From a virus, in IMG/VR virus record IMGVR_UViG_3300021440_000014, positions 108,011-172,010 of that record: DNA of 64,000 bases; one strand, given 5' to 3'. Position numbers and translations under genes: made by a program. The notes under the pieces were generated by a model. The model searched no databases. It worked only from the letters and a program-made list of their open reading frames with translations, and was not told the origin of the DNA. Each line of letters begins with the position of its first letter. The first letter of the stretch is position 1. Of this stretch, positions 23,966-45,807 are shown in pieces.

Positions 23966-24550
23966 TTAAACTGTGCAAATTATTTTATCATGCTGCAAAA
24001 ATGAAAGTGTTAATTCTCTCATTGGTTTAAAAAACTCCATCATTTGATCCCGAGAAAAACCATTTTTAGCGTAATTGACAGAAAGGCAAACGAATTCTAC
24101 GTTACCTTCTATATATCCTTTATTAGCATCTATTCTGTCTAAACTCGCTTTGATAGGATTACCTTTTATATGATGCCCTTGGGTGTTTTTAGGTATCTCC
24201 ATCTTCTTATAGGTATAAGGACATATACCTTTTTGAGCTTCCCAAACTTTTTTTAAATAATCTACAGTTAGATTTGTCGGTCCATAGTTTCTAATTCTTT
24301 CTTTTGAGTTTGCTTTATTGACATAATACCGAAAAGAACTAAATTCGTCCTGCCTATTATTTGCTTTTAAATATTTAACATTTCCAGAGTTAGGATGTTC
24401 TTTATTCCTTTTAGTTGCGACACAACTCCTAGAACACGCAATGCTGTATTTATTTTTTTGGCCACGCTTATACTCTTTTAAAAGTCTATTAAAAATTTTC
24501 CCGCAAGTTTCGCATTTAAGCTCCACAAATTGTTTAGCGTTTTTTCTCAT
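23966..24550 (-). CDS. HNH homing endonuclease next to tmRNA
   Basis: 194 aa from the ATG at 24550 (MRKNAKQFVELKC). N-terminal zinc finger CETCGKIF...CSRSC, then an HNH core (GICPYTYKKM, HHIKGNPIKASLDRIDANKG, NVEFVCLSVNYAKNG), similar to the enzyme at 725. TGTAAT lies 9 nt before the ATG, so it is expressed separately. It starts 40 nt after the tmRNA 3' end. Confidence 0.85.
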   Translation of the reverse strand: MRKNAKQFVELKCETCGKIFNRLLKEYKRGQKNKYSIACSRSCVATKRNKEHPNSGNVKYLKANNRQDEFSSFRYYVNKANSKERIRNYGPTNLTVDYLKKVWEAQKGICPYTYKKMEIPKNTQGHHIKGNPIKASLDRIDANKGYIEGNVEFVCLSVNYAKNGFSRDQMMEFFKPMRELTLSFLQHDKIICTV

Positions 24551-24570: not shown

Positions 24571-24602
24571 GGTGGAAGTGAGAAGAAATTGGTGGAAGTG
24601 AG
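24571..24602. repeat. 12-bp direct repeat of the tmRNA 3' end
   Basis: GGTGGAAGTGAG occurs at 24571-24582 and again at 24591-24602; the second copy is the 3' acceptor end of the tmRNA. It looks like a target duplication at the tmRNA/HNH junction. Confidence 0.7.
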
Positions 24603-25028
24603 GGAAGTCGAATCCCTGTCTCTAACAATCAACTACTTACGTTTACATGCTTATATCAGTTTAATTTTCTGTAACAAAAACTGATCAAATTTTATTACAG
24701 AGTTTACTATTTAGCCTTTAGTTAAGAAACAAGTAACTTACTTGCTAAAAGTCCTGAAAATTCGCAACTTGACCTATCAGGAGTCAATCGAGTTGCGGGT
24801 AACAGCGATTAGGCTGCTACGGCTTGGTTAAAATCAACTGCTTCAACATTTCCCAAATATGAATCTGGGTTATTGAAGATCTCTTCGGCTTGCGCCAAGA
24901 GAGCATTGATTTCTGCATCATTTTCGTCAGCATTTATTTTTTGATTACATATTTATAGACGCCAAGCAATCTTCGTCTGCATGTAGTATTAATAGACCAA
25001 TTTTTAGATCGATACCATTTACACTCCC
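24590..25028 (-). ncRNA. ssrA: tmRNA (transfer-messenger RNA)
   Basis: 5' GGGAGTG pairs with 3' CACTTCC (7 bp), and the end reads A-CCA. The 5' part has the tmRNA D-loop-like TGGTATCGATC; the 3' part has T-arm AGGGA-TTCGACT-TCCCT. Between are a PK1-like stem (AGACG/CGTCT), a tag frame at 24931-24809 and a 7-bp stem CGCAACT/AGTTGCG. The tag starts ADENDAEINALLAQ and ends NQAVAA, a protease-degron-like end, with UAA stop. The 40-codon tag is far longer than the ~10 of most tmRNAs. Total 439 nt. It would tag and rescue stalled ribosomes with SmpB (not in window). Confidence 0.93.
24809..24931 (-). CDS. tmRNA-encoded tag peptide frame (40 codons + stop)
   Basis: Resume codon GCT at 24931 after ATAAAT; reads ADENDAEINALL near the start and AVDFNQAVAA at the end, then TAA. 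The start resembles ANDENYALAA-type tags and the end AVAA resembles ClpXP-recognised tails. It is not initiated by itself but read by trans-translation. Confidence 0.85.
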   Translation of the reverse strand, partial: ADENDAEINALLAQAEEIFNNPDSYLGNVEAVDFNQAVAA

Positions 25029-30263: not shown

Positions 30264-30451
30264 ATTAAATTGGTGACTAATAAATCATTATAGCTGCTAC
30301 CACACCCCAATATTAAAGTGTTTTTGCCTTATTTAAAGTGTCCTACACTCACTATAACTTACTTAAGTTGGTATCCCTTGACGGTTTTGCGCCGTCGTCT
30401 CGGACTTGAGAGGCCCGCGATTTACTATTAATCTAAAGGGACATTAAAATG
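30264..30451 (-). other. RNA-rich spacer, unresolved
   Basis: About 190 bp without a frame. Hairpins GACGG-CGCAAAA-CCGTC, AACTT-AAGT-AAGTT and GGTG...CACC are visible but no tRNA could be folded with confidence. Confidence 0.35.
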
Positions 30452-43277: not shown

Positions 43278-44237
43278 ATGAAAAAAGAAAAAATATGTAA
43301 AAAATGCAATAATAATTTTATTATTAATTTCAAAATAAATGACAAAAATATATGTCTCTCTAACCGAAGTTTTTGCTTATTATGTAAACCTAAAAGACAA
43401 AAAATATCGAAAGATGCTATAGAAAATATAATAAAAGAATATAATTTAATTGGAGCAGAAGAATGCCAAAAGAAATTTAAAATATCAAAAAATCAAATTA
43501 CATATATTGCTTCTAAATATAAATTAAAATTAAATCCAAAAACTCATAGTAAAATAAAATCTAAAAGTAAAATAGAGATAGATCCTTTTAAATACAAAGT
43601 TAATCATCTTTCATTCAGTAATATAAATAATTCAATATGCGCTTATATATTAGGGCTAATTTGGACAGATGGACATATTAATTCAAGAAATAACTCGATT
43701 ATATTTTCAACCACATATCCTGATTCCGAATATTTTTCTAAAGAATTCTTAAAAACAGGTTCATGGAACATTTATAGATATAAGTCTAATAAAAATCACA
43801 AAGATAAAATATCAATAATAACTACTAATAAATTCCTAAAAGAAACATTAGTATCTTTGGGTTTTTTAGAAAAAATAAAAGGGTTAGAAAAAGTTTATGA
43901 ACATATACCAGAAAATCTAAAACATTATTTTATTCGGGGGCTAATAGATGGAGACGGATGCTTTTATGTTAATAAAAAGAAATCGATTTATCGTTTTTCT
44001 CTATGCTCCTGTTTAAATCAAAACTGGAACTGCATACAAAAACTACTAGATTCACTTAGCATAAAGTATAAAATAGAAAACTCTACTACAAAAAATGGAT
44101 CTTATAGCAAAATACATATTAGTGGCATACCTAATGTAAAAAAATTTGGCGACTTCGTTTATAGAAATCGCCAAGATGACTTTATTGGATTAGATCGTAA
44201 ATATAAAAAATATTTAGAAGTTCAATTTAAAACCTAA
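43278..44237 (+). CDS. LAGLIDADG homing endonuclease
   Basis: 319 aa. N-terminal zinc finger CKKCNNNF...CLLCK, a helix-turn-helix (GAEECQKKFKISKNQITYIA), then two LAGLIDADG helices, YILGLIWTDGHI and FIRGLIDGDGCF. Single chain, so monomeric. TATAAT lies 6 nt before the ATG. It runs against its neighbours and overlaps the 3' end of the DUF2828 gene by 11 bp. Confidence 0.88.
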   Translation: MKKEKICKKCNNNFIINFKINDKNICLSNRSFCLLCKPKRQKISKDAIENIIKEYNLIGAEECQKKFKISKNQITYIASKYKLKLNPKTHSKIKSKSKIEIDPFKYKVNHLSFSNINNSICAYILGLIWTDGHINSRNNSIIFSTTYPDSEYFSKEFLKTGSWNIYRYKSNKNHKDKISIITTNKFLKETLVSLGFLEKIKGLEKVYEHIPENLKHYFIRGLIDGDGCFYVNKKKSIYRFSLCSCLNQNWNCIQKLLDSLSIKYKIENSTTKNGSYSKIHISGIPNVKKFGDFVYRNRQDDFIGLDRKYKKYLEVQFKT

Positions 44238-45807
44238 CATTCGCATATCTCTCCGAAGAAAGGATCTTAACCATTTCGTCGTAAGGATTCGTGATTTTTC
44301 CGCCAAGAATGAACTTTATAGTGCTTGGCGAACTTCCGCTGACAAGCATCACTCCGTCCTCATTCATCTTAGCAGGACTATTATCTTCTCTCGCGTTAAG
44401 ATTCCAGAAGATTATTTCTGGCATTTTATACTTCGCGGCCTTATATTTAGACTTAATAACCTCAAGGTTAGTAAGCTTATTAGACTTGCAAGCTGTATTG
44501 AATTCCATGTCAGAAAAGACAATAAGCTTCTTAGGCATATCGGACTGCTTCACTTTTCTTGCTTTGGCGGACTCAAGAATTAACTCAAATGCCGCTTGCA
44601 AATTAGTGCTTCCACCCCAAGATGCTTTTCTGATATTATTAATCTTTTCGTATACTGTGCTTCCGTTAACAGTCTGCAATTTAGGACTCTCTTCAAAGGT
44701 TATAAACCAATTTTTGAATGGACCGTTATTTCTTTCTGAAACGTAAAGACCCAATCCAATTGAAGAATACATAGGAGGAACACTTGCTCCACCGCTTAAC
44801 ATCGAGCTTGACACGTCAATCAATGGAATCATTGAACACTCACTTCCCTCAAAGAAATCAGGCAAATTATTCCACATAACATCAACTGATGAAGTTGCAT
44901 CTCCACTTAGAACGCTTCTAACTATGTCGTAAGGATAAAGTCCAGAAGTATTGATTTTAACTTCTCCCTTAGCCGCCTTATCTAAGAAGGCTGCATATCT
45001 CTCGTTGTCATTACGAGCAAAAGCCTTTCTATAAAGAAAACCGGCTCTGGAAGGAATCTTATCGTAACTAATAGAACTCCAGTCCTTTTTGCACATGGCC
45101 TGCTCTACAAGAGAAATTTTCTTTCTGAGAAAAGACAAAATCCTACGATAGTTTCTCTCTGAAAGACTCATGAAAGAGGCAAACTTTAGCCCCATCTTTC
45201 GGCTCTCAAGCGAAGAGGCATTGGTCGAAGGCATCCATTTGGCAATAAGCGATGGATTCTCACTGCTGAGATCCGCGTGAAGCTTGTTGTTGATAAATGT
45301 CATCATCTGCTTCTCACACTGCGTTCCAACTAACTCAAAGAGATCGTCAGTTCTTCCATAAAAAAGAATATTCTCAAAGTTGGCTGTAACCACATTAGGA
45401 TAGTTGGAGGCAAGCCATCTTAGGCAAGTTCTAAATGTCTTTCTTTCGCCTTGCCCGCCACGTATATCTCTAATATAAAAAAGAGCCTTCATAGCAAGGT
45501 CGCTATTTTCGAACAATGCCTTTTTAAAGGCGTCCACAACTACGGCTTCAGTTTGAGATCTAAACGCTCCAGCCTTGGAAAAGAAATCCAAGACCTTATC
45601 TCCAGTAGACTTGTTAGTAAGTGCTCCATTAGCAGTAAAAACCTTAGCCTTGGAAGTATCCTCTAAAACCATCGCTTTGAGCAATGGATTAATATTACTA
45701 GAAGGTAGTGCGTTGGCTTTGAAAGAAGCTTGGCTTACGCTCTTTGAGTCTGAAACCTTCTTCTTCGCCTTTGGTAGCTTATTTAACTGTTCGTTAATGT
45801 TTTTCAT
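44227..45807 (-). CDS. DUF2828/TROVE-like protein (Ro60-related)
   Basis: 526 aa. Residues ~85-300 are HEAT-like helices with FYIRDIRGGQGERKTFRTCLRWLA, NILFYGRTDDLF and WMPSTNASS, the DUF2828 signature related to TROVE/Ro60. Residues ~320-500 are a VWA-like domain (MIPLIDVSSSMLSG, SWGGSTNLQAAFE, IVFSDMEF). Ro proteins bind misfolded small RNAs and Y RNAs, so in a genome rich in odd tRNA-like RNAs an RNA-chaperone role is plausible. Confidence 0.8.
   Translation of the reverse strand: MKNINEQLNKLPKAKKKVSDSKSVSQASFKANALPSSNINPLLKAMVLEDTSKAKVFTANGALTNKSTGDKVLDFFSKAGAFRSQTEAVVVDAFKKALFENSDLAMKALFYIRDIRGGQGERKTFRTCLRWLASNYPNVVTANFENILFYGRTDDLFELVGTQCEKQMMTFINNKLHADLSSENPSLIAKWMPSTNASSLESRKMGLKFASFMSLSERNYRRILSFLRKKISLVEQAMCKKDWSSISYDKIPSRAGFLYRKAFARNDNERYAAFLDKAAKGEVKINTSGLYPYDIVRSVLSGDATSSVDVMWNNLPDFFEGSECSMIPLIDVSSSMLSGGASVPPMYSSIGLGLYVSERNNGPFKNWFITFEESPKLQTVNGSTVYEKINNIRKASWGGSTNLQAAFELILESAKARKVKQSDMPKKLIVFSDMEFNTACKSNKLTNLEVIKSKYKAAKYKMPEIIFWNLNAREDNSPAKMNEDGVMLVSGSSPSTIKFILGGKITNPYDEMVKILSSERYANVRF

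Follow-up and report, generated by a model that had tools for sequence, protein, structure and literature searches.

A one-piece tmRNA with a 40-codon tag in an uncultured phage, and related phage tmRNAs with long, conserved tags

Introduction

The peptide tags encoded by transfer-messenger RNA (tmRNA, gene ssrA) are usually seen as short, near-interchangeable degrons. In the standard bacterial one-piece form (Rfam family RF00023), a tRNA-like domain with a G3-U70 pair and CCA is combined with a GCN resume codon, a tag frame of mostly 8-15 residues, a stop codon in the hairpin that follows and an alanine-rich tag end. The gene studied here lies on the minus strand, at positions 25028-24590 of a 64,000-nucleotide (nt) stretch of uncultured phage DNA that we call the window (bases 108011-172010 of the 172,010-bp IMG/VR record IMGVR_UViG_3300021440_000014). 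It shares all of these features with the bacterial form, but it is phage-borne, has a tag of 40 codons and contains an insert that folds as its own hairpin and encodes a conserved, predicted helix.

Some mycobacteriophage tags are about 25 amino acids (aa) long; our searches gave no match to these. Cultured phages with tmRNAs include, according to the available text of two surveys (PMC4131195, PMC9004378), the mycobacteriophages Bxz1, Cali, Catera, Wildcat and others, Bacillus phage G and Methylophilales phage Melnitz. These too are complete phage ssrA genes, but that of Melnitz is permuted and, in the same portions of text, no extended conserved tag is described for any of them. Neither was a description of conserved extended phage tags found in the available part of a third survey, PMC11915505, which gives 10 aa as the commonest tag length in a database of 97,179 tmRNA sequences, 79 of them from phages. 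A more distant relative is the DS6A-type RNA, which is also phage-encoded but consists of the tRNA-like domain only, has no tag frame and is thought to inhibit.

Here we report that uncultured phages, many of them marine, keep tags three to four times longer than usual, the interior of which is conserved at the protein level. This interior spans phages without detectable terminase similarity and has no confirmed match in bacterial genomes, and the old question of why phages carry ssrA thereby becomes directly testable.

A complete one-piece tmRNA gene

The covariance model RF00023 matches the window from end to end (model positions 1-374) at 25028-24590 on the minus strand, with 99.5 bits and an E-value of 1.2e-37 (cmscan against Rfam), the gathering score being 47 bits. 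All seven positions of the acceptor stem GGGAGUG/CACUUCC are paired, including the G3-U70 wobble that is the alanine identity signal, and the UGG-UAUCGAU element, the T-arm and CCA are all found. The full tmRNA fold beats 100 of 100 dinucleotide shuffles (z -4.7), and the roughly 90 extra nt of the tag insert fold upon themselves in the minimum-energy structure. The gene is thus a complete one-piece tmRNA. A preliminary description made from the letters alone had recognised the landmarks of a one-piece tmRNA (7-bp acceptor stem, CCA, T-arm, tag frame and flanking stems), and the covariance model, named there as a search that might reject the gene, accepts it. ARAGORN did not report a tmRNA at this position; because it misses some such genes, phage tmRNAs are probably under-counted. 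The parts of the gene outside the tag are as follows.

24590-25028, minus strand: one-piece tmRNA (ssrA) gene, 439 nt with encoded CCA (RF00023 match)
25022-25028, minus strand: 5' strand of the acceptor stem, GGGAGUG, which holds G3 of G3-U70 (7/7 pairing with 24594-24600)
25007-25017, minus strand: UGGUAUCGAUC, D-loop-like element in the tRNA-like domain (direct reading, covariance-model alignment)
24601-24617, minus strand: T-arm AGGGA-UUCGACU-UCCCU with the loop UUCGACU (direct reading, covariance-model alignment)
24590-24600, minus strand: 3' strand of the acceptor stem plus ACCA (direct reading, covariance-model alignment)

Two other architectures were ruled out. A group I intron form is incompatible with the intact T-loop and with extra sequence that lies within the tag frame, and a permuted two-piece tmRNA (RF04321, RF01849-51), in which the 3' piece precedes the 5' piece, is incompatible with an RF00023 alignment that runs from 1 to 374 in order. 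The phage origin of the record, also claimed earlier, holds: the 172,010-bp contig encodes a terminase large subunit (TerL), and profile searches place an RNA ligase, a Dda-like helicase and a Ro-like protein in the window.

A long tag under coding selection

The tag frame begins with the resume codon GCU (24931-24929) at the site expected from the covariance model, preceded by UAAAU with an A at -4. It extends for 40 codons, the length first described, from 24931 to 24812, into a UAA at 24811-24809.

24812-24931, minus strand: tag reading frame of 40 codons, ADENDAEINALLAQAEEIFNNPDSYLGNVEAVDFNQAVAA (translation; resume codon by covariance-model alignment; coding-type substitutions relative to related tags)
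24869-24901, minus strand: codons of the conserved block LLAQAEEIFNN, within the predicted helix at residues 2-20 (common to the tag L133 described below; AlphaFold)
24809-24811, minus strand: UAA stop of the tag, within the hairpin that comes after it, the usual place of tmRNA stops (direct reading, covariance-model alignment)

At its two ends the tag resembles ordinary ones: it starts A-D-E-N and ends in QAVAA, hydrophobic and alanine-rich as protease signals are. Set against the commonest length of 10 aa (in the available text of PMC11915505), it is about four times as long as usual, in agreement with the earlier estimate. That a tag of this length is unusual needs a qualification: at 40 aa it is the longest found here, but tags of 29-35 aa are common in this phage group and long tags are no rarity in the one-piece tmRNAs of phages. 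AlphaFold, using two sequences, predicts a helix at residues 2-20 with a mean predicted local distance difference test score (pLDDT) of 75.

Viral collections were scanned with a DNA pattern that covers the 3' end of the tmRNA and is blind to the tag; this yielded the loci L133, L126, L151 and L185. The L133 tag, ADEEYRDLLAEAEQIFNNADAYVPEEALLAA, has 31 aa and belongs to a phage with a contractile sheath and a T4-type terminase unrelated to the TerL of the window phage. It shares LLAxAExIFNN with the window tag, at a local alignment score reached by 0 of 20000 shuffles, and over 16 codons the silent differences between the two are saturated (pS 1.02) while replacements are few (pN 0.16). Both tags have what marks the extended-tag phage group defined here: a length of 29-40 aa and a conserved core that is predicted to form a helix. 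A terminase relative of the window phage, G031, has the 35-aa tag ANDDIDMEMALSVAEADEILAKFGYVEEEALQMAA, and the tags of L126, L151 and L185 (30-35 aa) are similar to it. For these six tags (window, L133, G031, L126, L151 and L185), found without the use of tag sequence, pN/pS is 0.53 in frame versus 1.14 and 1.04 in the shifted frames, and in six long-tag tmRNAs the G3-U70 pair, the resume context and the stop are intact. Because the tags of the relatives are long, stay in frame and differ by substitutions of coding type, a frame-shifting sequencing error, which the preliminary description had raised as a danger, can be discounted.

These data bear on two explanations that do without a meaningful peptide. 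It is very improbable that the extra 90 nt serve mainly as a hairpin on which the folding of the tmRNA depends, with an open frame that is incidental. The inserts do fold better than the synonymous-random mean in 6/6 tmRNAs (z -0.97 to -4.5; window -2.9), but the third-position substitution bias is confined to the tag frame, the protein core is conserved with differing codons and the insert shapes differ from one another, and on these grounds we reject a pure RNA-element reading. Even harder to credit is a degenerating passenger gene or an assembly artefact, its frame open by chance: the window gene lies on one metagenomic contig, with a repeat and an HNH-type gene next to its 3' end, but its structure is intact down to full acceptor pairing and G3-U70, and many independent contigs carry comparable tmRNAs under purifying selection. 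The related loci refute it in practice.

A conserved core in 29-35-aa tags

Tags of 29-35 aa with the core APS[VL]AEAD[AE]ILAxFG occur both in relatives of the window phage and in phages without a match to its TerL. A scan with a tag alignment found 51 IMG/VR loci with this core; RF00023 matches 50/50 core-bearing records searched, 48/50 of them above the cut-off. The amino-acid core is kept while the codons vary: the 41 distinct cores, pooled, give a pN/pS of 0.33 in frame versus 1.43 and 1.06 in the shifted frames, where conservation inside the search pattern partly reflects the selection of matches by their core. Positions outside the pattern (-2, -1, 11, 12 and 15; AP before, FG and E after) nonetheless hold one residue in 84-93% of cases. 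The tags are acidic, and the final two residues are AA in 32/43 distinct tags.

Most family cores look like a capped short helix, with S-x-x-E at the start and G at the end, and for one related tag (L250) AlphaFold predicts helices at 13-22 and 28-34 (mean pLDDT 81). The core was not found in other open reading frames of the three phages searched, and the tag peptides gave no convincing match against Pfam and PDB.

The window tag is firmly linked to L133 only; the pair probably forms one family with the APSxAEADxILAxFG tags, but by a direct link that is weak. Compared with five core-family members, L133 gives p-values of 0.002 to 0.019 and the window tag 0.026 to 0.33. A scan for further tags of the window/L133 type returned 147 pattern matches, 0 of them confirmed, and is a weak test in that L133 itself was not recovered.

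Distribution among phages and bacteria

The terminase of the window phage is about 22-34% identical to those of cultured phages, in partial matches only, and 54-62% identical to the best 80 of 105 IMG/VR loci. Seven long-tag records have this terminase at 53-57% identity, near-full-size contigs of 158-178 kb among them, and for about 50 proteins of the window phage there are homologues in the records G052 and/or G092. Core-bearing contigs of 204 kb, 184 kb and 168 kb, among others, have no match to the window TerL. Because the core is found without such a match, and because the terminase of L133 is T4-type, the tag module crosses phage lineages.

Across 84,980 GTDB species, a core scan gave 58 pattern matches and 0 confirmed ones, and a tblastn search of the tag peptides against 50,697 phage records gave no convincing match. 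Viral and bacterial tag lengths were compared by applying one 3'-end pattern to both collections and taking the tags from ARAGORN. Among the matches listed, tags of at least 20 aa were found in 9/26 viral versus 5/107 bacterial one-piece tmRNAs (Fisher p 1e-4), a few of the bacterial calls being doubtful. The tmRNA of Metamycoplasma auris (L329) is also one-piece with a tag above 20 aa (25 aa), but it is chromosomal, its tag ends in AFA and the phage core is missing.

Other tag groups recur in phages, for example DVELSTWTFDDVMSFMGADLAVAA and GNVLDKMETLGLVRESEVTVA. A second and a third long-tag phage group have motifs of their own, STxTFDxxMxF and xLxTLGL (L146, L158, L169, L227 and L004; L152, L115, L138 and L196), and since the motif groups are separate, long tags arose more than once. 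Among permuted viral tmRNAs, L161, L167, L189, L225, L231 and L235 have tags of 24-31 aa, several of which begin like ANxxTFDFSAMSFTGNTV.

A proposed mode of action

We consider it somewhat more probable than its alternatives taken together that this is a functional phage ssrA which uses the SmpB and the alanyl-tRNA synthetase of the host, and whose tag is a conserved docking helix in front of an alanine-rich, degron-like end. From the sequence we infer that the RNA is charged, works with SmpB and tags proteins, that its tag docks and that the products are degraded. The tRNA-like part carries the features that both host partners, synthetase and SmpB, require. The host synthetase would charge the phage tmRNA with alanine by way of G3-U70, and in infected cells host SmpB and EF-Tu would bring the charged molecule to ribosomes that had stalled on broken mRNAs. 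Such a ribosome would then shift to the resume codon GCU, add the alanine of the charged tmRNA and the 40 encoded residues, and halt at UAA. The tag itself divides into three: the A-D-E-N start, a predicted helical module that is specific to the phages and subject to purifying selection, and an alanine-rich AVAA end of the kind used by ClpXP-type proteases. The helix would most likely dock to an adaptor or protease, of the host or of the phage, and in this way route stalled products efficiently, and the most likely fate of these products would be degradation.

Several observations weigh against this proposal. The final AA is lost in 11/43 tags (e.g. LLVE) with the core retained, and this speaks against a degron confined to the C-terminus. 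The link of the window tag to the APSxAEADxILAxFG family is weak taken alone: against a family profile built without L133, 432/5000 shuffles reach its score. We found no smpB in the 172-kb record of the window phage, where the preliminary description had suggested looking for it, so the host would need to provide SmpB, as it can; nor was SspB found in the long-tag records.

The main rival is a non-degradative fate, in which truncated polypeptides would be directed by the conserved helix, as a targeting or interaction peptide, to a place or partner of the phage's choosing, or be stabilised by it, the alanine-rich end being a leftover. We regard this as rather unlikely, though it has several points on its side: the core is far better kept than the C-terminus, with one residue dominating outside the pattern while the final AA is lost in 11/43 tags, LVE ends included; a helix is predicted in both the L250 and the window tag; and the core is common to phages without detectable TerL similarity. 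Most tags, however, the window's among them, keep the final AA, and no neighbour gene shared by the window and its relatives was found. The earlier suggestion that the tag marks products for a phage-chosen fate, or acts as a functional peptide, would fit the conserved core. A broader version, in which trans-translation has been re-purposed, so that a docking helix and a specific host or phage partner let the phage, not the host's ClpXP-type degron, set the fate, and the module has spread between unrelated lineages, is a tentative idea that we hold to be possible but doubtful.

The phage tmRNA might also be a decoy that titrates host SmpB and does no tagging, as proposed for the RNA of mycobacteriophage DS6A. 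Short forms are indeed known in viral contigs (L009, 69 nt) and in the literature (available text of PMC4131195), but in a decoy there would be no need to conserve a tag frame, or to keep the resume context and the stop codon, and there is little chance that it explains the window gene.

Gene neighbourhood and candidate partners

Two features adjoin the 3' end of the tmRNA gene.

23966-24550, minus strand: HNH / endonuclease VII-like gene that starts about 40 nt past the tmRNA 3' end, a neighbour only (PHROG 3322, E 2.4e-18; PHROG 1035, E 1.5e-16)
24571-24581, minus strand: UCACUUCCACC, second copy of 11 nt from the 3' acceptor end of the tmRNA, between the tmRNA and the endonuclease gene (direct reading)

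Together, the gene and the acceptor-end repeat TCACTTCCACC look like a mobile endonuclease that reached the end of the tmRNA. A conserved neighbour as partner of the tag was considered and rejected: a gene that is RecA/UvsX-like by sequence, and other, unassigned ones near the tmRNAs of the relatives, are not common to the window. ClpP-family genes are present in 12/35 records, the window phage not among them. They are more likely prohead proteases, because in TerL relatives with both genes located the distance to TerL is mostly 5-6 kb. As in the window phage, smpB was not found in 45/46 other tmRNA-bearing records. The record of L152 is the sole searched long-tag record with an smpB of its own (G099:C1:19419-19826, E 6e-46), which may belong to the phage itself or to a stretch of host DNA.

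Other observations

On one viral contig, a tmRNA of 69 nt has the tRNA-like domain and nothing else (L009, 6747-6815, minus strand; 57.7 bits) and resembles the inhibitor-like DS6A form. Synechococcus phage S-CBWM1 (MG450654; L002, 2953-3231) carries, in its published genome, an unannotated permuted tmRNA of cyanobacterial type (RF01851, 123 bits; ARAGORN tag ANKIVAFHRQAVSCA); its blastn match had made it a candidate relative of the window tmRNA and was rejected on account of this type.

The window also contains a tRNA cluster of a dozen or more genes, of which those at 30372, 35261, 39181, 39389, 40620 and 41607 (minus strand) were found by Rfam only and missed by ARAGORN. At 44227-45807 (minus strand) it encodes an RNA-binding protein of Ro/TROVE-like type (phrog_850), to which 675 phage records have matches. 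The terminase large subunit of one long-tag phage, 162 kb in size, is split into two consecutive frames (G054:C1:25465-27293).
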